DNA from: a virus
Direction: 5' to 3' (one strand)
DNA length: 48,581 nt
IMG/VR virus record: IMGVR_UViG_3300021959_000073
Location: 1 to 48,581 of that record
The position numbers and the translations under genes are program-made. Positions 6,692 to 31,591 of the stretch are shown one piece after another; within the stretch, counting starts at the first letter, position 1, and every line of letters starts with the position of its first letter. The notes under the pieces are model-generated. The model did not search any database and was not told the DNA's origin. It was given only the letters and a program-made list of their open reading frames with translations.

Positions 6692-9600
6692 ATGCGTAGT
6701 TTTAGAGATATCACAGAGGCTAAAGAAACTGTTGTATTTGGATTCGGGCGATTCAATCCAAGCACGATTGGGCATGAGGCCGTTATTGAAAAGATTGCTT
6801 CTGTAGCAAAGGGCAATCCATTCTTCATATATCCTTCACATACTACTGGACCTAAAGACCCCCTAAAGCACTCTTTGAAAATTGCGTGGATGAGGAAGAT
6901 GTTCCCCAAGTACAAGAAGAACATTATTGTAGATAATAAGGCTAAGACTGTCATCAACATTGCTGAGAAACTATACAAGGATGGTTATAAAAATTTAATT
7001 CTTGTGGTGGGAAGCGATAGAGTAAAAGATTTCGATGCCCTATTACAGAGATATAATGATGCACCAGACAAAAAAGGTAATCAGTTATTCAAATTTGATT
7101 CAGTCAAAGTGGTATCTGCTGGAGAGCGTGATCCAGACGCAGATGGCGTTGCCGGGATGTCTGCCAGCAAACTCAGAAAGGCAGCATCAGATGGTAAGTT
7201 TGATGATTTCAAAAAGGGTATCCCCAATACATTGAACGACGCCGATAAGAAGAAATACTATTTTGACGTTCGTAAGGGAATGGGTATTCGTGAAGATCGT
7301 GAAATGGGTGATGACTATGATTCATTGCGTGACGCATACCTCACAGGTAAAATCTGGAACGTGGGTGAAGTTGTAGAGGCAAACGGTGTCAGTGGTGAGG
7401 TTGTTCGTAAGGGTACAAACTATCTCTCATTCGTAGCAGAGGATGGCAAGGTTCATAAGGCATGGTTACATGAGATTGAACTTGATGAAAATGCAGTTTA
7501 TGATAAAGCAAAGTCTGATGGTGCTAAAAAATATAAAGATAGTCTTGGTGGTGAAGAACCTCTGACAGCAGCAAAATCTCCCTTACAGAAATTGAAGGAC
7601 TTTGACAAGTCCAGAGTTGCCGCAGGGAAACCACCCATATTTACAGACAAGAAACCACCTAAGTTTATTCGCATGAAGAAGTCTGGCCAGATGACAATCA
7701 TGAATGTCCCTACTGATGAGATTGATAAATTTGAGAAGAAGGGTTATGAGATCATTGAAGACCTTGTTGGTGTAAAACCAATGAGTGGACCTACAGGACA
7801 AATCTTTGCATTGAAGTCTGAAGAAGTTGAACTTGATGAAGACGCTTCTGTATATAAAAAGACTGCAAGAAAAAATAAAAATGACGTTACATATGCTTTT
7901 GGTAGAACTAAAAAACTAGATGGCCAACCAAAAGAAAAGGGTGGATATTGGGTTTGGAAATTGTCGAAGAATTATGATGGAAAAGTTCGGGGTGGTATTA
8001 GAGACTCATGGGTATATGTTGACAAAGATTTATCTTATTCTGATGCTGTCAAATTAATGAATAAAAAACTTGGACGCAAAGAATTTAAAGAATCAGTTAA
8101 GGGTAAGGATGTTGGATATCCAGATGAATCCGTGAAGATTGGTAAGAAACACTATATCATCTACAAAGGTGGTAGAGAATGGTATGGATATGAAGTAGAC
8201 AAAGAGGGAAACCAGCTTGGAGACTCAGTGTTTGATCCTAAAAAGAGTGAACTGATAAAGATTCTCGCACAAGAAGGTCTTGATGAGCGCAACTACGCTA
8301 AAGAATATGCGAACTACCAAGGAACACCAGAACAGATTGCTCGCCGTTCTTCAAGGAACAAGGCTCGTAGGGCAATGGGTGACAAGGCAGTTAAGGGTAT
8401 GGACGTTGGACATAAAGACAACAACCCAATGAATAATGACCCGAAGAACCTACGCATGGAGAAACCATCTGACAATCGTAGAGAACCACGGTTGCGTGAA
8501 GAAGATGAACTTGATGAGATGGCATGGTATAAAGTAGCACTAGCAAAAATTAGTCAATTGAACCACCCTAAAGATTATGAAAAAATGGTCAAACAATATG
8601 CGACTGATATGAAAAAACCAGAACTAAAAAACAAGACTGCTTCTTATATCGCAGCAAGGATTGCCCAAGAGTATAAGGGTCAGGACGGTAGAAAACTTGT
8701 TCAGTATATCAACAAACTGGTTGATGATGGTAAACTCCCCAAAGAACTCAAGGCAGAATATCAAGAAGAAGAAACAATGCAGACCTTTAGTGATTTCGTT
8801 AAACAGATCAATGAAGTCAAACAGGACAAAGATGTAGATGATAAGGATGGAACACAACCAGCAAAGTACTATGCTGGTGATATGGCCAAGTCTACCAAAT
8901 CCAAGAGGGATGCACACTTCAAAGCAAAGAAGGCTGGTCCTGCTCCCGGCGATGCTTCTGCAAAAACTAAACCATCCACACACACTAAGAAGTTCAAACA
9001 GATGTATGGCGAAGCGTTACCTAAAGATGCAGATCAAGGTGATTACATCGATGATTTCGAGAAGTCAGATGCACCACAGTTTAGGGGTAAGTCTAAAGAG
9101 AAACGCAAGGACATGGCTATCGCTGCATACCTCTCAAAGAATGAGTCTTTCCTAGATAACGTCAGTAGGATGTTGGGTGAGGATGGTCACACTGATGTTG
9201 CGTCTATGAAAAATAAGGTTCAGATTGCTCAAAAAGCATTGATGAAGATGCAAGGTGAACTGACTAAACTTGGTGATGAAGATGATCTACCTACATGGTG
9301 GACAAACAAGGTTGCAACAGCAGTATCTCGTTTGGATGACATGTCTGATTATATTGACACTCAGGTTGAAGATGTGCAACTAGACGAAAAGATTGAAGGT
9401 CTGGTGAAGAAGGCAGATAAGTCTGGTATGCCATACTCTATTCTCAAGAAGGTATATGATCGTGGTATGGCAGCATGGAAAACGGGTCATCGTCCCGGCA
9501 CCACACCACAACAGTGGGCGATGGCGAGGGTCAACTCGTTCGTGACAAAGAGTAGTGGCACTTGGGGTAAAGCAGATAAAGACCTAGCAAAACAGGTTGA

Positions 9601-9964
9601 ACAGATAGAAGAAGCTTGTTGGGTTGGATACAAACAGGTTGGTATGAAAAAGAAGGGTAATAAAGAAGTGCCCAATTGTGTACCAGAAGAGAAAGAATTA
9701 AATGAGTGGGGTGAGATTGAGGAAGAATCAGAATATCAAGGTCGTAAAGTCACTCTAAACAAACCCACAAAGGGTGATGTTAAAAAGTCCAAGGTGTATG
9801 TCAAGAATGAAAAAGGCAATGTAGTCAAGGTCGAGTTCGGTGATCCTAACATGCAAATCCAAAAAGACATTCCATCACGAAGGAAAAGCTTCCGTGCTCG
9901 ACACAATTGTGATAATCCCGGCCCAAAATGGAAAGCAAGATACTGGTCATGCAAAGCATGGTAA
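6692..9964 (+). CDS. Modular capsid polyprotein with N-terminal nucleotidylyltransferase
   Basis: This 1090-residue protein opens with MRSFRDITEAKE, where ITE|A is a likely prohead-protease site. A HIGH-superfamily nucleotidylyltransferase follows (GRFNPSTIGHEAVI, then GMSASKLRKAA near residue 155). A string of short modules is separated by LxE-type junctions: IELDE ~266, EEVELDE ~380, GLDE ~530, DELDE ~607, VQLDE ~895, KELNE ~1003. One module is HNH-like (VGHKDNNPMNNDPKNLRM ~572-589), another resembles DUF5872 (DRGMAAWKTGHRPGTTPQQW ~920-940). The C-terminus FRARHNCDNPGPKWKARYW is common in marine phage virion proteins. The protein probably enters the prohead and is cut into peptides and enzymes; this is inferred. 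Confidence 0.65.
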   Translation: MRSFRDITEAKETVVFGFGRFNPSTIGHEAVIEKIASVAKGNPFFIYPSHTTGPKDPLKHSLKIAWMRKMFPKYKKNIIVDNKAKTVINIAEKLYKDGYKNLILVVGSDRVKDFDALLQRYNDAPDKKGNQLFKFDSVKVVSAGERDPDADGVAGMSASKLRKAASDGKFDDFKKGIPNTLNDADKKKYYFDVRKGMGIREDREMGDDYDSLRDAYLTGKIWNVGEVVEANGVSGEVVRKGTNYLSFVAEDGKVHKAWLHEIELDENAVYDKAKSDGAKKYKDSLGGEEPLTAAKSPLQKLKDFDKSRVAAGKPPIFTDKKPPKFIRMKKSGQMTIMNVPTDEIDKFEKKGYEIIEDLVGVKPMSGPTGQIFALKSEEVELDEDASVYKKTARKNKNDVTYAFGRTKKLDGQPKEKGGYWVWKLSKNYDGKVRGGIRDSWVYVDKDLSYSDAVKLMNKKLGRKEFKESVKGKDVGYPDESVKIGKKHYIIYKGGREWYGYEVDKEGNQLGDSVFDPKKSELIKILAQEGLDERNYAKEYANYQGTPEQIARRSSRNKARRAMGDKAVKGMDVGHKDNNPMNNDPKNLRMEKPSDNRREPRLREEDELDEMAWYKVALAKISQLNHPKDYEKMVKQYATDMKKPELKNKTASYIAARIAQEYKGQDGRKLVQYINKLVDDGKLPKELKAEYQEEETMQTFSDFVKQINEVKQDKDVDDKDGTQPAKYYAGDMAKSTKSKRDAHFKAKKAGPAPGDASAKTKPSTHTKKFKQMYGEALPKDADQGDYIDDFEKSDAPQFRGKSKEKRKDMAIAAYLSKNESFLDNVSRMLGEDGHTDVASMKNKVQIAQKALMKMQGELTKLGDEDDLPTWWTNKVATAVSRLDDMSDYIDTQVEDVQLDEKIEGLVKKADKSGMPYSILKKVYDRGMAAWKTGHRPGTTPQQWAMARVNSFVTKSSGTWGKADKDLAKQVEQIEEACWVGYKQVGMKKKGNKEVPNCVPEEKELNEWGEIEEESEYQGRKVTLNKPTKGDVKKSKVYVKNEKGNVVKVEFGDPNMQIQKDIPSRRKSFRARHNCDNPGPKWKARYWSCKAW

Positions 9965-9966
9965 CT

Positions 9967-9982
9967 TATAAATATATAAATA
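9967..9982 (+). promoter_or_regulatory. Tandem T4-late-type promoter boxes
   Basis: Two adjacent TATAAATA boxes (9967-9974 and 9975-9982) lie upstream of the second polyprotein gene, followed by an AAAGGA ribosome-binding site before 10005. They match the T4 late promoter, recognised by gp55/gp33-modified RNA polymerase. Confidence 0.7.
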
Positions 9983-10004: not shown

Positions 10005-12074
10005 ATGTCAAATTACAGAAAAACAATGGCCGATGCGCTGCGAGAGATGTATCCTCTTACAGAAGAAACACAGATTGATGAAGCTACAATGAGTTCTTCT
10101 CAGATTGCGAGGTTGAAGAAGGCATATGAACCTATGCGTGATAAGAAAATCAGTACATCAAATGCTGATAAACTTAGCGCAATGATGGACAAGGTGGGTA
10201 AAGACAAAGAAGCACTTATCCAGTTGTTCAAGGCAGATATTCCTTTCGTGAGTCAAAGCGCAGTAACAAAACTTATTACCAAGCACAATATGAAGGGTGC
10301 TGAGATTAATAAGTTGCGGGAAGAAGTTGACCTTGATGAGGTAGGTGGTTCTGCGTTTGGTGGAACGATTGATAAAATTCAAAAGGTTGTTGATGACAAA
10401 CAAGCAACGAAGATTGATGGTGTAATGGTTGATACATTTACCGCATCATTAATTATGAAAATCTGGAACGGGGTGAGCAAACAAAATCAAGACAAGATGA
10501 GGAAAATGAAAGTCACTCAACTTGCTAAGACAGCATATAAATTGGCAGGAATGAAAGAAGAAGTTGACCTTGATGAAGGAACAAAACAGGTTCTTGCTCA
10601 CGGTGGTAAAGGTAAGTATAAAGTAACCAAGGATGGCGACAAAATTGAAATTAAGTTCGGTGGTAAGGTAGTTGGAACTGCTGACTTTGACCGTGGTGCT
10701 GACAGTTTCTTCGTAAGTATCAAAGGTGAGAGGGGTCAGAAGTCTTTTGACGATGCACAGGCAATTGCTGATTATTTCGCAAAGAACAAGATTACAGAAG
10801 AAGTTGACCTTGATGAAGGTAAGATGAACAATGCGACGATGCAAGCAAACAAACCAAGGATTGAAAAAGCAAAAAAACTTATGGGACCATCTACAAGTAG
10901 AAAAGAAGGCATACAGATGGTTGCAAAGGGTATGCCCACTTCAGAAAAAGAGGCTACTAAACTGGTTGATACAGTTATAAAGATGATGCAGAAAAATGAT
11001 TATGTCCCAGAAGAAGTTGACCTTGATGAAAATCTCAATGAAATAAAAAAACATATTGATGATCTTGAGTTTGAGCGCAAGCGTATGACAACCAGCGGTC
11101 AGGAATCTTTAGATAAACTCATTAAGGCAAAAAGTATAAAAGATGCCAGAAAAGCATTTGATGACATGTATGGATACGAATATGACAGAGTTACATCAAG
11201 TGGTCAAGAGAGTATGGTTAAGATTGGTAAAATGTTGGGTATGAAGATGGAAGAAGTTGACCTTGATGAAGATAGTCTTGATGATTTTCAAGACTTTGCC
11301 CGTCTTTATGGTGGGGGTGATGAAATTTATGTTGTAACTCAAGGAAAAGATTCTAATTCACTAAAAGTTATTGGTATAGAAAAAGACCCAAATAAAGCAA
11401 AGAAAATCCGTGATCGTGCTAAAGGTGCGAGAGCAAGTCTTTGGGGTCAGATGAAAAGTTCTCAAAAAGTTCTCAAACTAAAAATTGGTGATCCTGTTAG
11501 TTTTGAAGACTCCAAAAATAAATTATCTTTTATTGAAGAAGTTGACCTTGATGAAGGTAAGATGTCTCAGTTGCACCAGTATATCAAAGACAAGAAGAGC
11601 GCAGAAGAGATTGCGAAACTGATGAAGTTGGATGTCAAAACAGTTAAGTCACTGATGAGCAGTCATCATCCAGAGGATGTTGAAGAGGGTGCTGCAGCTG
11701 ATGCTCGCCGTGCAATGCGTGCTGATCCAGATATGCGACAGAAGTTCTCAAAGGATGTTTCTGCAACTGATGATGACGTAAAGGGCGCATCAAAGAATAT
11801 TATGATGCAGATGCGAAAAGCACAATCACTGAATGGTCGTTTCGATGTTGAGTTTGCTGACGGTAAGAAAGTTAAAATTCCTGCGAAGATGGCTATTGCA
11901 GTTCAGCAGAAATACAATTCTATGAAAAGACCCGCAGAGAAAGAAAAGTTTCAGGCAAAAATTGGAAAGTCTTACAAGGATATGTTGTCTGCACTTAAAG
12001 AAGAACTACAACCCAAGAAAGAATCAATCCTAGAACGGATGAATAGAAAACTCAAGGAGAATAAAGATGGGTAA
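10005..12074 (+). CDS. Modular capsid polyprotein with six EEVDLDE linkers
   Basis: The 689-residue product starts MSNYRKTMADALREMY and has a first junction TQIDE|A. Six perfect EEVDLDE linkers then separate unrelated 70-95-residue modules, near residues 106, 185, 265, 336, 416 and 511. LDE fits the (I/L)xE specificity of T4 prohead protease gp21, so the protein looks like a precursor cut into about seven small basic polypeptides inside the prohead. No module has an enzyme motif I recognise; the sixth (MSQLHQYIKDKKSAEEIAKL) is HTH-like. It lies behind a double late promoter. Its stop overlaps the next gene by 8 bases. Confidence 0.6.
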   Translation: MSNYRKTMADALREMYPLTEETQIDEATMSSSQIARLKKAYEPMRDKKISTSNADKLSAMMDKVGKDKEALIQLFKADIPFVSQSAVTKLITKHNMKGAEINKLREEVDLDEVGGSAFGGTIDKIQKVVDDKQATKIDGVMVDTFTASLIMKIWNGVSKQNQDKMRKMKVTQLAKTAYKLAGMKEEVDLDEGTKQVLAHGGKGKYKVTKDGDKIEIKFGGKVVGTADFDRGADSFFVSIKGERGQKSFDDAQAIADYFAKNKITEEVDLDEGKMNNATMQANKPRIEKAKKLMGPSTSRKEGIQMVAKGMPTSEKEATKLVDTVIKMMQKNDYVPEEVDLDENLNEIKKHIDDLEFERKRMTTSGQESLDKLIKAKSIKDARKAFDDMYGYEYDRVTSSGQESMVKIGKMLGMKMEEVDLDEDSLDDFQDFARLYGGGDEIYVVTQGKDSNSLKVIGIEKDPNKAKKIRDRAKGARASLWGQMKSSQKVLKLKIGDPVSFEDSKNKLSFIEEVDLDEGKMSQLHQYIKDKKSAEEIAKLMKLDVKTVKSLMSSHHPEDVEEGAAADARRAMRADPDMRQKFSKDVSATDDDVKGASKNIMMQMRKAQSLNGRFDVEFADGKKVKIPAKMAIAVQQKYNSMKRPAEKEKFQAKIGKSYKDMLSALKEELQPKKESILERMNRKLKENKDG
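10320..11554 (+). repeat. Six dispersed 20-bp direct repeats encoding EEVDLDE
   Basis: The sequence GAAGAAGTTGACCTTGATGA recurs at 10320, 10557, 10797, 11010, 11250 and 11535, always in frame, with spacings of 237, 240, 213, 240 and 285 bases. The copies are identical in DNA although the modules between them are unrelated. That suggests homogenisation by recombination or recent module shuffling at the linkers. A variant (GAAGTTGAACTTGATGAAG) occurs near 7828 in the preceding gene. Confidence 0.9.
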
Positions 12075-14873: not shown

Positions 14874-15026
14874 ATGGTTGAAGTTTTATCAGAGGTAAAT
14901 TGGGGCAAGGCAATCGAACCTGTCACCAAAGTTTTTACTAAGAAAAAAGAAGAACCTAAATTCCTTGAAGAACAAATTAGAGATTACTATCCCTGTGACG
15001 TAGAACCGAAGGACGAAGAAAAATGA
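14874..15026 (+). CDS. Small acidic/basic protein, 50 residues
   Basis: A GGGAGAA site precedes this ATG. The product runs MVEVLSEVNWGKAIEPVTKV to VEPKDEEK and its stop overlaps the following start by 4 bases, which supports it as a real coupled gene. No family is recognised. Confidence 0.6.
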   Translation: MVEVLSEVNWGKAIEPVTKVFTKKKEEPKFLEEQIRDYYPCDVEPKDEEK

Positions 15027-15472
15027 AAACATTTAAGAAATTCGTATCCGAAGAAACTTTAGACGAAGCCACATTTCAGACAACTATTGCTTCTCTAAAC
15101 CAAGACATTCCAACAGGTGATTATTCTGATCCCAGAGTTGTGAAGGCGCTTAATTCTTTCGTGGGTACAGTGGCAAGAGCTACAATGGACGGAACAATGA
15201 TCCCTGAGATGGTTGTTGGTAAGATGAGAAATTCTCTAAGTAAGATTGGACTAACCTTTGGTGAAGTCCCAATGATGGAAGGTGAAAGTGGTTCCTTTGA
15301 TTTACCCCTAACCAGTTTTGGTGGTCGTTTCGGTAAAGGTTTGGATACGCCATTTGATGAGTTTGAAGCAGATGACGGTATCTCGCATCAAGTAGAGGGT
15401 GGTCTAAAACTAGTACTAAATTATGAAATGCAAGAGGATAATTCGTGTAGGTTGACTGCTTCTATTCAATAA
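15023..15472 (+). CDS. Capsid-targeted protein with leader MKTFKKFVSEETLDE|A
   Basis: The 149-residue protein has the clearest T4 internal-protein-like leader in the window: MKTFKKFVSEETLDEATF, with LDE|A as a cleavage site. The rest (FVGTVARATMDGTMIPEMVV, then LTSFGGRFGKG) resembles a conserved protein near the neck/capsid genes of marine T4-like phages whose function I do not know. It is translationally coupled to the upstream 50-residue gene. Confidence 0.6.
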   Translation: MKTFKKFVSEETLDEATFQTTIASLNQDIPTGDYSDPRVVKALNSFVGTVARATMDGTMIPEMVVGKMRNSLSKIGLTFGEVPMMEGESGSFDLPLTSFGGRFGKGLDTPFDEFEADDGISHQVEGGLKLVLNYEMQEDNSCRLTASIQ

Positions 15473-15473
15473 A

Positions 15474-15836
15474 ATGTATGAGAAGATAACTACTAACAAT
15501 TTCATGATGTATGCTATTAAACATTATGAGAATCCACATTGTGAAGGTGAAAAAGAGTTTCATGATGATATGAAGAGGTTTAAGTATATTAAACGTCTAC
15601 TAAAGAAGTATAGAGTGAGTGGAGTATTAAAAGAACGGTTGCTTCTGAACCATATTATTATTCTTAGGAACTTGTTTGGAAATGAGGCATGTGTTACCCT
15701 TTTACTTTTTAAGACACAACCAGAATATCTTGAAGTCTTGAAGTCTTTCCTACTTTTCCTAAATATGATTAATCCAGATGAACTGAACGAAATTGATTTG
15801 GATGAAGGTGTTATAGATATATTAAGGAAAATCTAA
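15474..15836 (+). CDS. Conserved marine T4-like phage protein
   Basis: This 120-residue helical protein begins MYEKITTNNFMMYAIKHYEN and has KRFKYIKRLLKKY and LLLNHIIILRNLFGNEA. I recall it as a conserved family in marine T4-like phages (DUF7207, to be verified), with no known function. An internal EIDLDEG near the C-terminus matches the LxE pattern of the polyproteins. Its stop overlaps the next start (TAATG). Confidence 0.6.
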   Translation: MYEKITTNNFMMYAIKHYENPHCEGEKEFHDDMKRFKYIKRLLKKYRVSGVLKERLLLNHIIILRNLFGNEACVTLLLFKTQPEYLEVLKSFLLFLNMINPDELNEIDLDEGVIDILRKI

Positions 15837-16450: not shown

Positions 16451-16746
16451 AAAGCTATCAAAAATTTATGCAAGAAGTCTATAAGTTGCAGCTCATTCGA
16501 GATAAATCTATGGACGTTTTAAAAATTACTGATACTAAGAACCCAAAGACTAAGATAGAAGTTCGTGGCAAAAAGGGTTACGAAATTGATGGATATGACA
16601 AAAAAGATAGACTACATAGTCTTTTAGATAAAATTGGAAAGTCTGCAAACATGAGCGATCTTGTGAATGGAGAGGTTGTGAGTATCAATCCTAAACACCC
16701 AGACGCAAGAATGGCGAACAAGACCCTTGATAAGATTGCAAAATAA
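16447..16746 (+). CDS. Small protein with capsid-targeting-like leader
   Basis: This 99-residue protein begins MKSYQKFMQEVYKLQ, very close to T4 internal-protein leaders (MKTYQEFIAE), and is then basic (IEVRGKKGYEIDGYDKKDRL). It overlaps the upstream gene by 4 bases. Flanking 32-bp repeats mark it as a likely inserted cassette. A T4-style internal protein is the best guess. Confidence 0.55.
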   Translation: MKSYQKFMQEVYKLQLIRDKSMDVLKITDTKNPKTKIEVRGKKGYEIDGYDKKDRLHSLLDKIGKSANMSDLVNGEVVSINPKHPDARMANKTLDKIAK

Positions 16747-16793
16747 TGAAAACAAAGGAAAAGATATACGTCAGTTTGGAGGACATAAAATGA
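16746..16793 (+). pseudogene. Duplicated 3' remnant of the 204-residue gene
   Basis: A 15-codon frame MKTKEKIYVSLEDIK copies the ending KTQEKIYVSLEDIK of the gene at 15836. It overlaps its neighbours by ATG/TAA contacts, as a gene would. It is best read as recombination debris that now supplies the ribosome-binding site (GGAGGA) for the gene at 16790. Confidence 0.6.
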
Positions 16794-17374
16794 AACGATG
16801 GACAGAAGTATCGCCTTACAATGGATTAGAAGAAGATGCTCCCGCAAATAATGCCGGTAGTGGCGATGTTGCAATGCCACCTGATGCAGTCAAGAAAAAG
16901 AAGAAGACCCTACTTGACCGTTCCATGATGGACGCTCGCACTAAGGCATATCGTGAACACCGAGCTCGTCTTGAAACTCGCCGTGCAAAACGAGAAGAGA
17001 GAAAGAACAAGAGTAAGTTCATTGAAAAGGTCAAAGAGGAAGTTGCAACTGAGATGGCATATGGTTCTGGACACGATACAGTCAAACCTATGGCTGATAT
17101 TCAACCAGTGAATGCTGCAAAGTCTTCATCTGGATACGAACTGTATCACAAGGACTTCTCTGGTGCTATGCAACACGCATACAAGTTCGCAAAGAGCAAA
17201 GGCGTGATAGTAGACCCTGATGAGATTGATAGTAAGGTTGCGAGTGGTCCAAGAAAACCAAGCAGTGGTAAGACGAACAGTTACATCCTAGATACTAACA
17301 AAAAACAGAAGGTACATATTCAAGTTGCTAATCTCGACAACAAGAGATATGAACTTAACATGTATATTCAGTAA
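16790..17374 (+). CDS. Basic capsid-associated protein
   Basis: The 194-residue product begins MKRWTEVSPYNGLEEDAP. Its central region is highly basic and helical (RTKAYREHRARLETRRAKRE and onward), followed by a small folded domain ending in NLDNKRYELNMYIQ. The ATG at 16790 follows GGAGGA by a good spacing; a longer frame opens at 16727 without a ribosome-binding site. A DNA-condensing internal protein is plausible from the charge and neighbourhood. Not recognised further. Confidence 0.55.
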   Translation: MKRWTEVSPYNGLEEDAPANNAGSGDVAMPPDAVKKKKKTLLDRSMMDARTKAYREHRARLETRRAKREERKNKSKFIEKVKEEVATEMAYGSGHDTVKPMADIQPVNAAKSSSGYELYHKDFSGAMQHAYKFAKSKGVIVDPDEIDSKVASGPRKPSSGKTNSYILDTNKKQKVHIQVANLDNKRYELNMYIQ

Positions 17375-17853: not shown

Positions 17854-18082
17854 CGTTAAGATTTATGTAGTTTCAAAGGTAAACTACGATGAATTTATTA
17901 AGTCATATGAAAAGAAAAATGGAGCGGATTCGTACATTGCGCTATCAGTGAAGGACTACGAAAACCTTAGTCTAAACTTTGCTGAACTGAGACGATATAT
18001 AGAACAACAGAAGCAGATCATTGTCTACTACGAAAATGCAGTAGTACCGAATAAGGAAGAGGAAGATGGGAAAGTTCAATAA
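17702..18082 (+). CDS. Outer-membrane spanin lipoprotein (Rz1-like)
   Basis: The 126-residue product begins MRPIVYGTILLLSLTLMGCG, a lipoprotein signal with lipobox LMGC. A Val/Pro-rich segment (MPPKVVTVTKVV) and a helical C-terminal half follow. It overlaps the i-spanin gene by 152 bases in a different frame. Together they should span the periplasm and fuse the membranes during lysis. It is longer than lambda Rz1, and the C-terminal helix (LRRYIEQQKQIIVYYENA) may pair with the i-spanin coiled coil. Confidence 0.75.
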   Translation: MRPIVYGTILLLSLTLMGCGRIMPPKVVTVTKVVKTEIPVVARPKQVQLNDVKIYVVSKVNYDEFIKSYEKKNGADSYIALSVKDYENLSLNFAELRRYIEQQKQIIVYYENAVVPNKEEEDGKVQ

Positions 18083-18545
18083 TAAAATTTCAGCTGAATT
18101 CCATCCACCTAAGAAGTGGATTCTGGAACGCTCTCTCTCATATCAGAATGAAGAGATTGATGAGGGCGCACTAGAGACAGTTGGTGTGAAATGTCCTGCA
18201 AGTAAGATCACTTGTACTAAGGGATTTGTGACAGACCTTGCTAGTGTACCCCGTGCAATCTGGTGGTTGATTTCTCCGTGGGACATTGCCCGTGCTGCTA
18301 TCATTCATGACCTTCTCTACAAACGTATTCGCCAGTATCGTGAAAAAGAAGGTGTTCTTGATGAACACCCCAATGTATATGAAATTATCAGTAACTACAA
18401 GGCTGCAAAGAAAGCATCAGACAATGTATTTCTGATGGCAATGAAAGACGCTGACCCCGCCATTCCTAAATGGAAGATGTATGCCGCATACTATGCAGTT
18501 GTTCTCTGTGGTCGTTGGTCAATCATTCCAAGGGAAGAAGACTAA
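18066..18545 (+). CDS. DUF1353-family phage protein
   Basis: The 159-residue protein carries KGFVTDLASVPRAIWWLISP followed by ARAAIIHDLLYKR, the signature I associate with DUF1353. Members occur in phages and prophages, often near tail or lysis genes; the function is unsettled. It overlaps the o-spanin gene by 17 bases, suggesting it is part of the lysis operon. Confidence 0.75.
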   Translation: MGKFNNKISAEFHPPKKWILERSLSYQNEEIDEGALETVGVKCPASKITCTKGFVTDLASVPRAIWWLISPWDIARAAIIHDLLYKRIRQYREKEGVLDEHPNVYEIISNYKAAKKASDNVFLMAMKDADPAIPKWKMYAAYYAVVLCGRWSIIPREED

Positions 18546-25069: not shown

Positions 25070-25324
25070 GTGGAAGATATTATTAAAGCGGTTCAAGACG
25101 AAGGTATAACTGTTGTCATGGCTGTTGGTATGGGTTATTTTATATTTTTTATATGGAAGTATGTGACTCAACAAATTTTACCCGCACTCGACAAAGCTAC
25201 GATGACAACTATATCTCTCATTGACAGAGTAAGGATGCTTGATAATGACATGATAAGAATGGACCAGAAAATCAATACGATTCTGGAACTTCGTGACATA
25301 GAAAAGGAGAAGAAGGATGAGTAG
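25070..25324 (+). CDS. Small membrane protein with coiled coil (paralogue of preceding gene)
   Basis: The 84-residue product starts at GTG 25070 behind AAAGGA, with one membrane segment (VVMAVGMGYFIFFIWKYV) and a coiled coil ending RDIEKEKKDE. It pairs with the gene at 24787. The frame extends upstream, but those starts lack a suitably spaced ribosome-binding site. The stop overlaps the csgF-like start by 8 bases. Confidence 0.55.
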   Translation: MEDIIKAVQDEGITVVMAVGMGYFIFFIWKYVTQQILPALDKATMTTISLIDRVRMLDNDMIRMDQKINTILELRDIEKEKKDE

Positions 25325-25871
25325 GAACTTTTTCAGTCTAAAAACAGGTCATCATGCTTCTGATGTATTCTTTAAAAATCAGGCAATCTGGCACGATAGT
25401 GATATGCTCAAATCATTCTTGATAGGGGCATTTGTCGGTGCGCTCTTTGCTTTCGGATGTGCATTCCTCTCACCTTCACATGCTGGGGAACTTACTCACA
25501 CATGGAAGTCACCCGCATTTAGTGGTCAGGGATACAGCGCACATGTTTTGACCATTGAGAACCAAGAGTTTTCAAGGTCGCAAGCAATTAGAGAAAAGAA
25601 AGAAGCTGCTGAACGTCAAGCAATACGAGATGCTGCAAATACAAACCTTTCTAAATTTATGAAGAATGTGGAATCAAGAATATATGCACAACTTTCAAAA
25701 CAACTAGTAGATAGTATGTTTGGAGAAGAGGCTTCAACTTCCGGTACAGTTACTTTTGAGGGTACAACAATTAGTTATGTCAAAAGTAGCGAAACCGTAG
25801 ATTTAACGATTGTGGATGCAAATGGTAGTACGACTGTTATCACTGTTCCTGTTGGCGACTTTACTTTCTAG
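25317..25871 (+). CDS. csgF: Curli assembly factor CsgF-like protein
   Basis: The 184-residue product has a hydrophobic signal/anchor at residues ~30-57 ending SHAGELTH, then KSPAFSGQGY and VLTIENQEF, equivalent to the FRNPNFGG...LLNSAQAQN region of CsgF that inserts in the CsgG pore. A C-terminal beta-rich domain (ISYVKSSETVDLTIVDANG, then TTVITVPVGDF) matches the CsgF end. In curli systems CsgF sits on the outer face of the CsgG channel. The start at 25317 has a good AAGGAG and gives an unusual 29-residue N-terminal extension; ATG 25404 would give a plain signal peptide. It overlaps csgG. Confidence 0.75.
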   Translation: MSRNFFSLKTGHHASDVFFKNQAIWHDSDMLKSFLIGAFVGALFAFGCAFLSPSHAGELTHTWKSPAFSGQGYSAHVLTIENQEFSRSQAIREKKEAAERQAIRDAANTNLSKFMKNVESRIYAQLSKQLVDSMFGEEASTSGTVTFEGTTISYVKSSETVDLTIVDANGSTTVITVPVGDFTF

Positions 25872-26610
25872 TTGTGCGAGCATCCAACCACAGGATGCTC
25901 CTGTACCTAGTACTGTGCCGTTAGTAGATGAACTATACAACATAACACCACCTGAACGTAAGGTGCCGGTTGCGGTGTATAAGTTCAATGACGTAACAGG
26001 ACAAAGAAAATCCAGCTCATCACTTGCATTACTAAGTAGTGCAGTGACACAAGGTGGAGATATATGGTTAATCCAAGCCCTAAAGAAAGCAGGTAAGGGC
26101 GAGTGGTTTCAAGTCATAGAAAGAATGGAACTGGAAAATCTGTTAAAAGAAAGACAGATTATACGAAACACAAGAAAGAACTATGACGGAGATACGGCAG
26201 AAAAGATTAAACCCCTATTGTTTGCGGGAGTATTGCTGACAGGGGGCATAGTTGGGTATGACACCAATACAAGTACAGGTGGTATGGGGGTAAGATATCT
26301 GGGTATTGGTGTATCTGATGAATATCGTAAGGACATGGTAACAGTGGCTTTACGATTAATATCTGTACAGACAGGTGAAGTACTTTTGGCAGTCAGTTCT
26401 CAGAAAACTATTCTGAGTACAAAGTTATCTGCCACAGTGTTTAAATTTTTAGATATGGGAACTAAATTGCTGGAGACTGAAGCAGGGATAACGGACAATG
26501 AGTCCACTACCTACGCTGTGAGAAAAGCAATTGAACAAGCAGTTATTGAAATAATCAAGGAAGGTGAGCAAAAAGAATTATGGAAATTTAAAGAGGAGAA
26601 AATCAAATGA
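25822..26610 (+). CDS. csgG: Curli secretion channel CsgG-like lipoprotein
   Basis: The 262-residue protein has a lipoprotein signal MVVRLLSLFLLATLLSSC with lipobox LSSC. CsgG landmarks follow: PVAVYKFNDVTGQRK, FQVIERMELENLLKERQIIR, GGIVGYDTNTSTGGMGVRY, LGIGVSDEYRKDMVTVALRL, TGEVLLAVSSQKTILS and FKFLDMGTKLLETEAG. CsgG forms the nonameric outer-membrane pore that exports curli subunits. Length is close to E. coli CsgG (277). Its start lies within the csgF-like gene, 50 bases before that stop, and its end overlaps the curlin-like gene by 4 bases. ATG 25816 is an alternative start. Confidence 0.9.
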   Translation: MVVRLLSLFLLATLLSSCASIQPQDAPVPSTVPLVDELYNITPPERKVPVAVYKFNDVTGQRKSSSSLALLSSAVTQGGDIWLIQALKKAGKGEWFQVIERMELENLLKERQIIRNTRKNYDGDTAEKIKPLLFAGVLLTGGIVGYDTNTSTGGMGVRYLGIGVSDEYRKDMVTVALRLISVQTGEVLLAVSSQKTILSTKLSATVFKFLDMGTKLLETEAGITDNESTTYAVRKAIEQAVIEIIKEGEQKELWKFKEEKIK

Positions 26611-27290
26611 GAACGAGCATACTTACAATACTCGCTTACTTTGTTATGTGTAGTGTGAGTTATGCGAGCGACGTATACATAACACAGTCTGGTGCGAGCC
26701 TGACTGCAAACATCAATCAAGATGGACAGACCAATAAGTTCGGTGATGATACAACTGATGTTACTCTAACAGGTGACAGCCAGACGTTAGACATTGATCA
26801 GGTTGGTAACACTAACACCATTGCTGCATCTGTTGTCGGTGCAACACAGACATTGACAATAAATCAGACAGGTAATAGTAATACGTCTAACGTATCTGTT
26901 GGTGCTAACTCTGCATCTGATGACAATAGTATTATCCAAACAATCACTGGCAGTTCAAATACAACAACAGTGAACGTGGGTAATAATGCTGCAACCGATG
27001 ATGCTGATATTGATATCACTGCGACAGGCGATAGCAATACTATTACAGTAAATGAAAACAGCACTGCTACAATGGGTGTTGGTGACAAGAAGGTGACGAA
27101 CATCACAGCTATCGGCGGGAGTAATACGATTACATCAACACACACTGGTGCTGCTGATCAAGACACAACTCTTCATCACACTGGTTCATCTAGCACATTT
27201 TCAATTACACAGGGTGGTGCCTATGATGGAGCTGTAGATGTGACAACAGTGGGGTCAAATCACAGTGTTACGATTACTATGGACGATTAG
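26607..27290 (+). CDS. Curlin-repeat secreted protein (first subunit)
   Basis: The 227-residue protein has a Sec signal ending VSYAS. Curlin-type repeats with the Q-x-G-x-x-N pattern follow: INQDGQTN, IDQVGNTN and INQTGNSN in the first half, then looser Asn/Thr/Ser-rich repeats (TITGSSNTTTVNVGNN, ITATGDSNTITVNEN). Such repeats form the stacked beta-arcs of CsgA/CsgB amyloid. It directly follows the csgG-like gene and overlaps it by 4 bases, so it is the natural export substrate. Whether it polymerises is untested. Confidence 0.75.
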   Translation: MRTSILTILAYFVMCSVSYASDVYITQSGASLTANINQDGQTNKFGDDTTDVTLTGDSQTLDIDQVGNTNTIAASVVGATQTLTINQTGNSNTSNVSVGANSASDDNSIIQTITGSSNTTTVNVGNNAATDDADIDITATGDSNTITVNENSTATMGVGDKKVTNITAIGGSNTITSTHTGAADQDTTLHHTGSSSTFSITQGGAYDGAVDVTTVGSNHSVTITMDD

Positions 27291-28326
27291 TATCATTCTC
27301 TTTAGTACCAGTGCTTATGGTGCTATTGGAAATGTGGTGAAACACAAAGGGAATGCTTCTGTAGAACGGTCAGGTGAAAACTCTGTTTTGCAAAAGGGTT
27401 CTGATATCGAGTTCAAGGACACGGTGAAAACTGGTAAAGGCGATGTTGGTATCAAGTTTGTTGATGACACCAACGTAGCAGTGAGTGCCCACAGTGCCTT
27501 GGTTATCGATGAGTTTATCTATGACCCTAACTCTAGAAAGGGGTCGAAGTTGGTTATGAATATTGCACTTGGCACGGTGCGTTATGCGAGTGGTAATATT
27601 GCGAAGTTGAATAATCAGAACGTGGACATTCGGACACCAACAGCAAGAATTGGTGTGTTGGGAACGGCGTTCAGTATGACGGTGGATGAGGTTGGTAAGT
27701 CTTTAATTATTCTGTTACCTAATAAAGACGGGACAGTGGGTAAGATATCGGTGGAGACTGATGTAGGACAGGTTATAATGAATCAAGCATTTCAGTCAAC
27801 TGTGGTTGGTACAGGAGAAGCAAAACCATCCAAACCAGTGATACTAGATTTGACACTAGACCAGATTAACAACTTATTGATTATCAAACCACCAAAGAAG
27901 AAACTTATCAAATTGCTTAGTGACTCAAAGGCAAACAAGAATTTACTTGATATTGATTTTCTTGAGTTTGCCGCTTTAGATAAGAATGAGCTAGAGGAAG
28001 ACTTGTTTGAGTTTAACGAGTTGGACATTAACGATTTGGATGTGGAGTTACTAGGTAACATTCTTGACCAGATTGCTCTTGCTTTGGCTCAGTCAGAGTT
28101 GATAGATGGTAGGACAAGTGGATTTAATAAGTCAACACAAGTTAATACACTGGTAGACGGAAACAGCACACGAATCATACGAAGGGTAGGAAACAATACA
28201 ATAGAACTAGACTTGATAAACGACTATGGATATACAATCAACATTACACAGGGTACACCCGTGCCGGAGATAACAACAAGAGATGAAGACGCTTCTAATA
28301 TCATTACTATTACTCAGTCTGACTAA
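27265..28326 (+). CDS. FecR-domain secreted protein with curlin-like tail
   Basis: This 353-residue protein has a signal peptide (LLWTISIILFSTSAYG) and a FecR-type domain at ~20-170: GNVVKHKGNASVERSGE, FVDDTNVAVSAHSALVIDEF and the diagnostic RTPTARIGVLGTAF. An acidic Leu-rich middle (NELEEDLFEFNELDINDLD) and an Asn-rich C-terminus ending ITITQSD, like a curlin repeat, follow. In bacteria extracytoplasmic FecR domains often occur beside CHASE2 cyclases, one of which is encoded downstream. It may anchor or nucleate the fibre or signal to the cyclase. It overlaps the genes on both sides. Confidence 0.75.
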   Translation: MLRLLWTISIILFSTSAYGAIGNVVKHKGNASVERSGENSVLQKGSDIEFKDTVKTGKGDVGIKFVDDTNVAVSAHSALVIDEFIYDPNSRKGSKLVMNIALGTVRYASGNIAKLNNQNVDIRTPTARIGVLGTAFSMTVDEVGKSLIILLPNKDGTVGKISVETDVGQVIMNQAFQSTVVGTGEAKPSKPVILDLTLDQINNLLIIKPPKKKLIKLLSDSKANKNLLDIDFLEFAALDKNELEEDLFEFNELDINDLDVELLGNILDQIALALAQSELIDGRTSGFNKSTQVNTLVDGNSTRIIRRVGNNTIELDLINDYGYTINITQGTPVPEITTRDEDASNIITITQSD

Positions 28327-29068
28327 CATTGCTTTTGCAGGCAATTCAGTTATAATCAATCAAGTTACCACTGGTAATTCGAATAGTATCACTGTGGATG
28401 TAGATGGAAATGATAATGAAATTAATATGAGTCATGGCGGTGGAAACAATACCATCAACATAACACAAGAGGGTAAAGACGGTTACGTTGGATATACTTC
28501 TGCTTGGGGCTCTGGTGCATCATGGGGTGGTGACCTCGACGGCGACAGTAATTCTCTATTGGTAAAACAATTGTGCAATCAATCAACCTGTGGTGGAGAC
28601 AGGTTTGAATTTCACATAAAGGGCGATAGTAATGATGTTGAGTTTTATCAGGGATATACCGTGACAGCTGGCGGTGTTGCTTCGTCTGATACAGTAGAAC
28701 ATGGTGGTCATTCTATAATACTTGATATTCACGGGTCAAGCAATACATTTTTAGGAAGTCAAAGGTCAAATAACTCTGGACATGAACATAGCATGGTGAC
28801 CTATATATACGGAGATAGCAACGATATTTACATGCGACAAGATAGTAACGTGAGTAAAACAATGAACTTGACTGTGAATAACGATACTAATAATATTGAT
28901 ATGGTACAAACTGGTAATGCTGCACACAGTGCTACAGTAACAGTTTCGGGGTCTTACTCAACAACTCTAGACCTAAAACAACAGGGCGGCACAGCACAAT
29001 CGTATAGTCTATCGCAAAGTTGTGCGACAGTGGGGGGATGCAGTGTAAGCGTTACACAAGGGAATTGA
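28283..29068 (+). CDS. Curlin-repeat secreted protein (second subunit)
   Basis: The 261-residue product has a clear signal peptide (MKTLLISLLLLSLTNIAFAG). It carries several curlin-like units (INQVTTGNSN, NITQEGKDG, MVQTGNAA, LDLKQQGG, VSVTQGN) around an Asn/Gly/His-rich middle (HGSSNTFLGSQRSNNSGHEH). Two cysteine pairs (LCNQSTCGG and SCATVGGC) suggest disulfides, unusual for curlins. It begins 44 bases inside the FecR gene. It could be a minor or nucleating subunit equivalent to CsgB. Confidence 0.7.
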   Translation: MKTLLISLLLLSLTNIAFAGNSVIINQVTTGNSNSITVDVDGNDNEINMSHGGGNNTINITQEGKDGYVGYTSAWGSGASWGGDLDGDSNSLLVKQLCNQSTCGGDRFEFHIKGDSNDVEFYQGYTVTAGGVASSDTVEHGGHSIILDIHGSSNTFLGSQRSNNSGHEHSMVTYIYGDSNDIYMRQDSNVSKTMNLTVNNDTNNIDMVQTGNAAHSATVTVSGSYSTTLDLKQQGGTAQSYSLSQSCATVGGCSVSVTQGN

Positions 29069-29069
29069 A

Positions 29070-29543
29070 ATGAAAACATTTATTGAGTTTGGCGCCCCAT
29101 GTAATATGAGAGGGTTAGAAACTATCCCATATAGTATTACAAAAGCGAAAAAAGAAGGTTATAGAACAATTGCAATAGACTGTAAGAGCCGAGATTTTCA
29201 TTTCACACCAGAATATATTAAAGTTGTAGACAAAACATATTATAATTATTGGAGTGATGACATAGATATTCCTTTAGCAGATAAATGGATTTCATATGCT
29301 TCACTTGAACATTGTCCTAAAGAAAGAGTTTTAAAAGAGGTTGAAGGTATTGCAAAAAAAGTTAAAGGCAGTGGGGAATTGTCAATTGACTTATCACAAC
29401 ATGTCCACGGGCCGTGGACATACCTAAATAATATACAAACATCTGAATGGATAGATATTATGGATAATTTTTTTATATACATATTTGAAGAAGATTTAGA
29501 CGATGAGATGATATATTTTAGAAATTGTGTGGCGGCGCTATGA
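29070..29543 (+). CDS. Unknown protein within the curli-like cassette
   Basis: This 157-residue protein (MKTFIEFGAPCNMRGLETIP...) has no signal peptide or membrane segment and no motif I recognise. It is clearly more A+T-rich than the genes around it. It starts directly after the second curlin-like gene and overlaps the cyclase gene by 4 bases, so it is cotranslated with the cassette, yet may be a late insertion. A cytoplasmic role is likely. Confidence 0.5.
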   Translation: MKTFIEFGAPCNMRGLETIPYSITKAKKEGYRTIAIDCKSRDFHFTPEYIKVVDKTYYNYWSDDIDIPLADKWISYASLEHCPKERVLKEVEGIAKKVKGSGELSIDLSQHVHGPWTYLNNIQTSEWIDIMDNFFIYIFEEDLDDEMIYFRNCVAAL

Positions 29544-31591
29544 AAAAGTGGATTATATCATTATCAGTGATTTTAGTATTATGTGGATTGCGTTTTGCAG
29601 ACCCGTGGTTTTTGGACATGGTGCGACTCAAAGCACTAGACCAACACCAACGTAATCAGGAGTCTCTGACTCTCTCTAACCTTGCTACGGTAGAGATCAA
29701 TAATCAAACAATCAGAAAACTAGGTCAGTGGCCGTGGGATCGAAACAGGGTTGCAAACAAAATTATAGAACTCTATCAGGCTGGTGCCTCTATCGTGGTT
29801 GTCCCTATTCTATTTGCAGACCCAGACAGATTTGGTAAAGATGATGCACTTGCCAGAATACTCAAAAAGACTCCTACGGTTATAGGACAGATACCCAGCA
29901 ACGACAAGAGTAACACTGGTGTGGTTCGTGGTGTTGCAACTGTTGGAGAAGACTGGCAACCGTGGGTATACAGTTACCCCGGCGTGGTTGGTCCTATTCC
30001 AGAACTGGCAAAGAGTGCCAATGCGGTTGGTATGATGGTAATCGCACCAGAGAAAGATGGTGTGGTTCGTCGTATGCCTTTGGTTGTTGCAGTGGGCGGG
30101 AAGTTGTATCCATCTATCAGTATGGAAATCCTACGCATGGCTGCGGGGGATATATCGTTTCAGATGAAGACAGGTATTGCTGGTGTGGAGAAACTACGCA
30201 TACCCAAATACAAAATGATTGACACAGATGCTAATGGTAATATCTGGTTGGACTTCAAATGGAAGACACCAGTGTATGCATTACATGAGAAATTACCAGA
30301 CCTCACAGGTAAGATCGTTATACTGAGTATGACTGCTTCTGGTCTAGAAAGTCCCGTAGCAACCCCTGTGGGGGTCATACAGTCGCATAATCTTATAGGT
30401 GCATCACTTGCTACCATGATGACAGGACGCAATATAACCAGACCATTTTGGACTGACCTTGCTGAACTTGCAGTCAGTGGAGTGGGTGCATTGATCTTAG
30501 CATCAGTGGTTCTCACACTCGCATGGTATTTTGGGGCAGTATTACTACCCATTTTTCTTGTTGGATCGTTCTACGGGTCGTCCTACCTCTTTACAGAGTA
30601 CAGTTATCTAGTGGATTGGTCATATCCCGTCCTTACTATGTTTGTGGTCTGGGCCATTGCTGCGTTCTTACGGTTCATGGAAGAATATAAGGAGAAGATG
30701 GAGATCAAGAAACAGTTCGCAGGGTATGCATCACCTACAGTTGTGCGTATGCTACAGGAGAACCCTTCTCTTATTAAAGATGGTATGAAGAAGGAGATCA
30801 GCATTTGCTTCTCTGACCTTCGTGGGTTCACACCGTTGGGTGAGAGTTTTGGTGATGATGTCAAGGGTCTTACTGAAATCATGAATGGGTATATGGATGC
30901 AATCACACAACCTATTTTAGATTCAAATGGCATGGTGATCAAATATATCGGTGATGCGAGTATGCATATTCATAATGCACCTATAGATGACCCAGACCAT
31001 CCAAGGAGCGCAGTCAAAACTGGACTACAGATGTTAGATGCAGTAGTAAAGTTTAACGACAAGATCGTTGCAGAAGGTAAACCACCTATAGGAATGGGTG
31101 CGGGTATCAACACCGGCCTTGGTTATCTTGGAGAGATGGGTTCTACTATGCGACACAGCTACGATGTTCTAGGAGATGCAGTATCGACTGCTGCTAGGAT
31201 TGAGAGCAAGTGTAAGGAATATGGTTGTCTGCTGTTAGTAGGCGAATCCACATATGACTTGACTAAGAATGACTTCTTCTATCTCAAGGTTGATGAACTG
31301 GCAGTGAAGGGTAAGACCATCGGTATTCGTATCTACACCGTCCTGAGTGAAATGGATTGGATGATGAAGAATACCAATTGGGGTATGGCAGAAAACCAGC
31401 ATGAAAGAATGCACGAGTATTATAGCAATCAACAATTTGACCATGCCATTCGTCTATGCAATGATCTGATGAATGAATTTGATGGTAAAATGAGAAACTA
31501 CTATACTATGTGGATAGAAAGGTGTGAGTTCATGAAGACCCAGCCACTAGACAAAGATTGGAACGGTGTGTTCATAGCCACAACTAAATAA
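29540..31591 (+). CDS. CHASE2-domain class III adenylate/guanylate cyclase
   Basis: The 683-residue protein has an N-terminal membrane segment (WIISLSVILVLCGLRFA), a large extracytoplasmic CHASE2 sensor (~25-290, including VEINNQTIRKLGQWPWDRN and GVVRRMPLVVAVGGKLYPSI), and three membrane spans at ~295-375. A class III cyclase domain follows: ICFSDLRGFTPLGES and IKYIGDASM (metal aspartates), GAGINTGLGYLGEMGS and YDVLGDAVSTAARIESK. The transition-state Asn is replaced by Ser (DAVST) while the Arg is kept. It would make cAMP or cGMP in the host in response to an envelope signal. The start at 29540 is chosen over 29525 because it overlaps the previous stop by 4 bases. Confidence 0.85.
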   Translation: MKKWIISLSVILVLCGLRFADPWFLDMVRLKALDQHQRNQESLTLSNLATVEINNQTIRKLGQWPWDRNRVANKIIELYQAGASIVVVPILFADPDRFGKDDALARILKKTPTVIGQIPSNDKSNTGVVRGVATVGEDWQPWVYSYPGVVGPIPELAKSANAVGMMVIAPEKDGVVRRMPLVVAVGGKLYPSISMEILRMAAGDISFQMKTGIAGVEKLRIPKYKMIDTDANGNIWLDFKWKTPVYALHEKLPDLTGKIVILSMTASGLESPVATPVGVIQSHNLIGASLATMMTGRNITRPFWTDLAELAVSGVGALILASVVLTLAWYFGAVLLPIFLVGSFYGSSYLFTEYSYLVDWSYPVLTMFVVWAIAAFLRFMEEYKEKMEIKKQFAGYASPTVVRMLQENPSLIKDGMKKEISICFSDLRGFTPLGESFGDDVKGLTEIMNGYMDAITQPILDSNGMVIKYIGDASMHIHNAPIDDPDHPRSAVKTGLQMLDAVVKFNDKIVAEGKPPIGMGAGINTGLGYLGEMGSTMRHSYDVLGDAVSTAARIESKCKEYGCLLLVGESTYDLTKNDFFYLKVDELAVKGKTIGIRIYTVLSEMDWMMKNTNWGMAENQHERMHEYYSNQQFDHAIRLCNDLMNEFDGKMRNYYTMWIERCEFMKTQPLDKDWNGVFIATTK

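Follow-up and report, generated by a model that had tools for sequence, protein, structure and literature searches.

The question raised by this locus is why one phage protein should carry the same short acidic linker six times, encoded each time by identical DNA, between modules that are otherwise unrelated. The window, i.e. the whole stretch of DNA analysed, is the 48,581-base virus contig IMGVR_UViG_3300021959_000073, clearly only part of the genome of a marine T4-like phage, with genes for an alpha-glucosyltransferase, T4 RNase H, a T4-type primase, DUF6267 and subunits of ribonucleotide reductase; Pelagibacter phage HTVC008M and the Methylophilales phage Melnitz, both Kyanoviridae, were the nearest isolates found. 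The ORF at 10005-12074 (+ strand) encodes a protein of 689 residues and 76 kDa (P0001) which, as a whole, was matched by nothing in PHROG or Pfam at E 0.01. Six copies of the 20-mer GAAGAAGTTGACCTTGATGA start at 10320, 10557, 10797, 11010, 11250 and 11535, all perfect, in frame and read as EEVDLDE, just as an earlier sequence-only reading had it. The record contains no further copy, and a control search with the pattern reversed gave 0 matches. With the amino acids fixed and the codon usage of the window, the probability that all six codons are the same in the six copies is 3.6e-11, a value by which chance or codon bias was ruled out as the origin of the identical linkers.

The chain, read throughout on the + strand, opens with a capsid-targeting-like leader (MSNYRKTMADALREMYPLTEETQIDE, 10005-10082) with LTE and IDE sites at its end, followed by module 1 (ATMSSSQIARLKKAYEPM..., 10083-10319), whose DNA is matched at 72-92% in other surroundings (contigs L011, L018 and L024 among them). 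The six linkers (10320-10340, 10557-10577, 10797-10817, 11010-11030, 11250-11270 and 11535-11555) then alternate with module 2 (VGGSAFGGTIDKIQKVVDDK..., 10341-10556), module 3 (GTKQVLAHGGKGKYK..., 10578-10796), module 4 (GKMNNATMQANK..., 10818-11009), module 5 (NLNEIKKHIDDLEFERK..., 11031-11249), module 6 (DSLDDFQDFARLYGGG..., 11271-11534) and module 7 (GKMSQLHQYIKDKKSAEEIAKLMKLDVKTVKSLM..., 11556-11687). A conserved C-terminal domain (11688-12002), whose last residues are LKE-666, and a tail (12003-12074) that contains additional ILE and LKE sites as well as the stop codon complete the protein. Linker-to-linker intervals are 79, 80, 71, 80 and 95 residues, in agreement with the 71-95 claimed at the outset, and the outer segments measure 112 and 172. 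The modules, claimed then to be unrelated, do fall in different families, so that several unrelated domains share one chain, as the separately folded domains of the structure models also indicate. Degenerate linker-type sites lie at both ends (LTE-20, QIDE-26, DVEE-561, LKE-666 and ILE-677), and no [IL]xE occurs in the module interiors of this protein.

The same linker was found in many other phage proteins. The exact 20-mer is present in 84 stretches of IMG/VR contigs, for which chance would give well under one, as estimated from the size of the collection, and a protein scan of IMG/VR returned 29 related loci, two of which (L007 and L008) are the window's protein, identical over its full length. 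The two sets combined, after removal of redundancy, contain 95 proteins of marine phages whose linkers follow [EDK]E-x-[DE]-[LI]-x-E and which span several gene families: orthologs of the ORF, the cytidylyltransferase ORF upstream of it, the MGKKYFDTK... ORF downstream, and others. The linker DNA is almost invariant across contigs and can be written as GAAGAAGTTGA[AC]CTTGATGA[AG].

It is at these linkers that modules are exchanged between related viruses. DNA alignments of the ORF to other contigs have both their limits within about 0-5 bases of linkers, with 90-98% identity inside and different neighbours outside, as expected from the recombination at linkers that the sequence-only reading had proposed. 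Module 2 is matched over 10320-10577/10581 at 90-94% DNA identity (L013, L017, L022, L024, L025, L027 and L028), module 3 over 10557-10819 at 97%, between other neighbours (L016), and module 5 over 11010-11271 at 98.5% (L010) and 98% (L105), while matches of module 7 in other phages begin at linker 6. Comparing module order in related phages, the check suggested at the time, placed the 11 members of the module-3 family in 11 different contexts of previous and next module. Protein alignments behave likewise: 29.5% (3') and 17.8% (5') of their ends fall within 8 residues of a linker, against 9% for random positions, and 370 ends lie 0-2 residues past a linker, against 38 for random positions. 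The combination of near-constant linker DNA and diverging modules points to a linker that is either carried along at a cassette's end or serves as a short homology or adapter. T4-like phages recombine at a high rate; as 20 bp is a short homology, we can only infer the molecular route of exchange. Apart from the polyproteins, the C-terminal half of ORF 16727-17374 (YELYHKDFSGAMQHAYKFAKSKG...) resembles a between-linker module in the polyproteins of L015, L016 and Melnitz, a likeness indicating that modules occur in separate genes too.

The linker also looks like the cutting site of the phage's own capsid protease. The prohead protease of T4, gp21, cleaves after (L/I)xE (PMC9026906), a rule to which the LDE of the linker had been said to conform, and the pattern at the sites (L or I at P3, E at P1, A or G at P1') agrees with this. 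L or I occupies P3 in 204 of 209 linkers and E occupies P1 in 206 of 210 (D in 1), while P4 is free (E/D 111:93), figures to be read knowing that some of the loci were retrieved with the exact 20-mer, so that P3 and P4 are fixed in these, though P1 can still be E or D. Moreover, recombination homogenises the linker DNA, and strictness within the motif is therefore not fully independent evidence. The least circular evidence is the preference at P1', since this position lies outside the repeat: A and G together make up 53% at P1', compared with 14-18% at P2'-P4' and a background of 15%, and A or G is the first residue in 44 of the 92 independent module-start families (p 7e-14). This preference bears directly on the idea that the repeats serve recombination alone, as a signal at the DNA level (a hot spot or homing target) with incidental amino acids. 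Such a signal would account for synonymous positions that are nearly constant across phages, but not for selection on P1', nor for the fact that EEVELDE (n=86) and EEVDLDE (n=85), the commonest linkers in the 95 proteins, are about equally frequent and that degenerate forms such as EEIEIDE and EETELDE occupy the equivalent place; we consider it highly improbable.

If the linkers are cut, sites of the same kind should be scarce within the modules. [IL]xE was counted 5 times in modules of up to 100 residues, against 13.2 expected (P 0.005), a size limit which was chosen after looking and within which missed linkers are rare. In these modules the control motifs [IL]xD, Ex[IL], [IL]xxE and [VF]xE showed no significant depletion, and control proteins from these phages showed no depletion of [IL]xE itself (57 seen and 49 expected; 98 and 87). 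The ratio E/(E+D) is 0.35 in modules versus 0.49-0.54 in controls. Over all modules, long ones included, the depletion of [IL]xE was a trend only (15 against 19.7 expected, P 0.15), as it was in an earlier test with loose boundaries (11 against 15.2, P 0.14); tests of this loose kind gave no more than a trend since linkers that had escaped detection (IDEAR, IEIDE, EIKEG) entered the count as module interior. As regards structure, the AlphaFold2 model of residues 106-271 consists of two compact domains, corresponding to modules 2 and 3 (pLDDT about 70-90), and three linkers, all with pLDDT <50; the models were built from sub-alignments (A2 and A3), the full-length alignment having misplaced module fragments.

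Disordered linkers would equally suit a protein that is never cut, i.e. a multidomain virion or ejected protein organised as beads on a string, in which acidic flexible linkers are spread by recombination and no proteolysis takes place. Module exchange alone would then explain the identical linker DNA, and there is precedent in polyvalent phage proteins packaged whole, such as the N4 virion RNA polymerase (PMC5512222). An acidic spacer, however, needs no E over D at P1 (206:1) where P4 varies freely (111:93), and the uncut protein leaves both the A/G preference at P1' and the avoidance of [IL]xE in modules unexplained. We therefore regard it as unlikely, and cleavage by a gp21-type (I/L)xE protease inside the head as the better account of the site pattern. 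Considered together with swaps at exactly these linkers, this suggests that the linker is both a cutting site and a recombination adapter.

No S77/gp21 protease was found in the 48.6-kb window, a point against the cleavage reading. The refuting condition first named, a genome with no gp21-type protease, cannot be judged from this record, in which head genes are missing altogether because it is only a fragment. A gp21 (Pfam S77) is present in HTVC008M and Melnitz, whose related proteins have EEIEIDE- or LDE-type sites, and in three contigs bearing the exact linker (G011, G013 and G016), and the gp23 of the latter three reads FLTE↓A, LLGE↓A and LLME↓A, respectively, at the maturation position, as located by analogy with T4.

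The leader likewise recalls the proteins that T4 packs inside its head. That of the ORF, MSNYRKTMADA, belongs to a family pattern M-[TS]-x-Y-x-x-[TS]-M-x-[ED]-[AS], in which, among 30 relatives, Y4 and M8 are conserved in all 30, E/D10 in 29 and A11 in 18. Its spacing matches that of T4 IPII/IPIII, MKTYQEFIAE↓A (T4 IPIII from AF158101), which is a likeness of pattern and not a significant alignment. In T4, the first ten residues are enough for targeting, and in IPIII an Asp at position 10 blocks processing and not targeting (PMC9026906). The ORF product has no (L/I)xE at residue 10 (MAD↓A), relatives having mostly M-x-E↓A; with Asp10, its leader would be cut further on, at the LTE-20 or IDE-26 that follow. 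Directly 5' of the ORF (9967-9982, + strand) stand two adjoining TATAAATA boxes, which resemble T4 late promoters, TATAAATA being the T4 late-promoter consensus. The window contains 8 such boxes, all on the + strand, against 2.5 expected, a number reached in 0 of 100 shuffles, and similar boxes lie upstream of the orthologs in L015 and HTVC008M. Furthermore, the modules are basic (median pI 9.9 versus 6.1 in controls), as are the T4 internal proteins (PMC9026906). A small protein encoded downstream at 15023-15472 (+ strand) has a T4 IPI-like leader, MKTFKKFVSEETLDE↓ATF compared with MKTFKEFTSTTTPVSTITE↓ATL in T4 IPI.

Packaging is also suggested by the gene immediately upstream. The ORF at 6692-9964 (+ strand) encodes a modular protein of 1090 residues built like that at 10005-12074: a leader, MRSFRDITE↓A, is followed by a cytidylyltransferase/NMNAT-like domain, a gp23-like piece, an HNH-like piece and DUF5824, joined by ELDE-type linkers (IELDE, EEVELDE, EDELDE and EDVQLDE). 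Its syntenic relatives are the virion cytidylyltransferases of cyanophages. Cytidylyltransferase/NMNAT-like proteins have been detected by mass spectrometry in virions of S-CREM2, S-SZBM1 and S-SCSM1, as has S-CREM2 gp160 in those of S-CREM2, with the authors' caveat that abundant non-virion proteins may be carried over (PMC10665884, PMC9146016). The cyanophage proteins have leaders resembling capsid-targeting sequences (MKNFSSFLTE↓A in S-CREM2, MRFRQFIIE↓A in S-SZBM1), and the segments of gp160 are separated by INE, LSE and EETEISE↓G. By analogy with these proteins and those of T4, the 689-residue protein would be packaged too. As a separate observation, residues 354-392 of the 1090-residue protein, just before EEVELDE, resemble a segment conserved in the major capsid protein gp23 (DLVGVKPMSGPTGQIFALK); this fragment, found also in two related contigs, is perhaps a capsid mimic or docking piece. 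In addition, a DUF7207 protein (ORF 15474-15836, NEIDLDEGVID) and a DUF1353 protein (ORF 18066-18545, EEIDEGALE) each carry a single site near an end; such IDE/LDE-type sites in small neighbours suggest that more genes of the region may be head-protease substrates.

A protein that enters the prohead and is cut there could also be a core scaffold of the gp22/gp67/gp68 type, filling the core until gp21 reduces it to pieces, most of which leave the head. The protease motif is common to both, several gp21 sites occur per chain in the T4 proteins as here, and the core proteins of T4 are indeed cut to several fragments which mostly leave the head (PMC9026906). Against this, the modules are folded and basic, vary widely and are exchanged at a rapid pace, a variety which a filler does not need; the relatives carry gp22 as a separate gene; and the syntenic modular proteins are retained in virions according to mass spectrometry. 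A scaffold thus seems improbable, more so than the uncut protein. We know of no folded exchangeable cassettes in gp22, gp67 or gp68.

The reading that we consider probable is that ORF 10005-12074 encodes a precursor of internal head proteins, cut by gp21 at linkers which double as adapters for exchange. The precursor would be expressed late, and its leader, similar to the capsid-targeting sequence of T4, would take the chain into the prohead core, where a gp21-type prohead protease would cut after each LDE to yield about eight small, mostly basic domains of some 5-12 kDa. The released domains would remain with the DNA and then enter the host cell with it, whereas the linker, as a short homology or adapter, would allow cassettes to be swapped in frame between polyproteins, genes and phages. 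Cutting inside the head, as first proposed from the linkers, is well supported, if indirectly, by the site pattern, the depletion in modules, the leader, the disordered linkers and the gp21 and gp23 of relatives.

This is how T4 treats its internal head proteins, which are packaged in the prohead core and later ejected (PMC9026906). IPI, IPII, IPIII and Alt share with the ORF a leader some 10 residues long that has Tyr at position 4, a hydrophobic residue at 8, E or D at 10 and frequently A at 11, as well as (L/I)xE sites, small basic products and a late-type promoter. The 689-residue protein would accordingly work like them, with packaging, gp21 cutting and ejection of its modules, and is nevertheless not classed as their homolog: no internal-protein family (IPI, IPII, IPIII or Alt) appeared among the whole-protein matches at E 0.01 or the weak module matches. 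T4 has one small protein per gene and one propeptide, whereas here seven or more domains are joined by a standard linker whose DNA is the point of exchange; a string of exchangeable cassettes would be what is new.

Other systems share single elements of this arrangement. The polyvalent proteins of phages and plasmids (Iyer et al. 2017, PMC5512222) also combine many unrelated domains per polypeptide, extensive domain mosaicism, presumed delivery with the DNA and a proposed release into units. There, release is proposed to be brought about by an embedded peptidase (MPTase) domain, and the sections consulted describe no uniform linker; here, an identical linker is present and release would be due to the head protease acting in trans. 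In the ORF product, Pfam revealed no peptidase or listed polyvalent domain, MPTase, ART, ParB and LPD being absent from the whole-protein matches at E 0.01 and from the weak module matches. The ejection proteins of phiKZ and SPN3US are packaged, ejected and cut at x-x-E by a gp21 homolog (gp175 and gp245, respectively), with several cuts per propeptide (PMC10052503), steps which are predicted for the present protein; in SPN3US, 13 of the 14 mapped cuts remove N-terminal propeptides, and none frees a string of separate domains (PMC10052503). Finally, the open-licence PMC papers searched described no prohead-protease polyprotein with exchangeable domains.

Modular shuffling by mobile regulatory cassettes, with a short repeat as the homology for swaps, was reportedly described in T4-type genomes by Arbiol et al. 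in 2010. In their cassettes an intergenic repeat (promoter plus stem-loop) swaps genes, whereas here a coding repeat swaps domains within a gene.

As to what the modules do, single modules gave nothing above cut-off against Pfam and PHROG, and the folds of modules 2-3 found no Foldseek match at E <0.001 in PDB or BFVD and a best VIA-align Z of 3.9. Module 7 may be helix-turn-helix-like, as its model has three helices (VIA-align Z about 5 to HTH domains) and its match to Pfam Sigma70_r4_2 (E 0.003) falls below cut-off. The C-terminal domain, alpha/beta in the model, is better conserved than any other element and stands last in the chain of the majority of relatives. Among the T4 proteins, Alt and IPI have host take-over or anti-defence roles, and similar roles here would be in keeping with basic domains that are ejected and quickly exchanged.

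Beyond this protein, we lean, with less assurance, towards a general plug-in system for injected proteins in marine T4-like phages, in which one coding sequence would be both protease site and universal recombination adapter, and the cassettes it bounds would be packaged, released and traded without further adaptation. If true, a protein-processing site and a recombination junction would be one sequence, and a DNA-virus polyprotein would evolve by cassette swaps at its own processing sites. The linker would then be a search handle, already delimiting 92 module-start families in a small sample, most of them unannotated, and linker-bounded modules would become candidate factors for taking over the host early or countering its defences. 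Abundant bacteria of the sea are infected by phages that encode large proteins lacking annotation, and these may be delivered into the host along with the DNA.

Two further gene groups in the window deserve mention. At 140-2930 a T4-type alpha-glucosyltransferase adjoins a TET/JBP-like 2OG oxygenase, whose Pfam match is below cut-off, both preceded by a GT8 glycosyltransferase, from which a phage DNA with oxidised and glucosylated cytosine appears possible. A curli-like block at 25317-31591 comprises CsgF and CsgG (E 1e-19 and 5e-57, respectively), an ORF whose curlin repeat is weak, and genes for a FecR-domain protein and a CHASE2-adenylate/guanylate cyclase.
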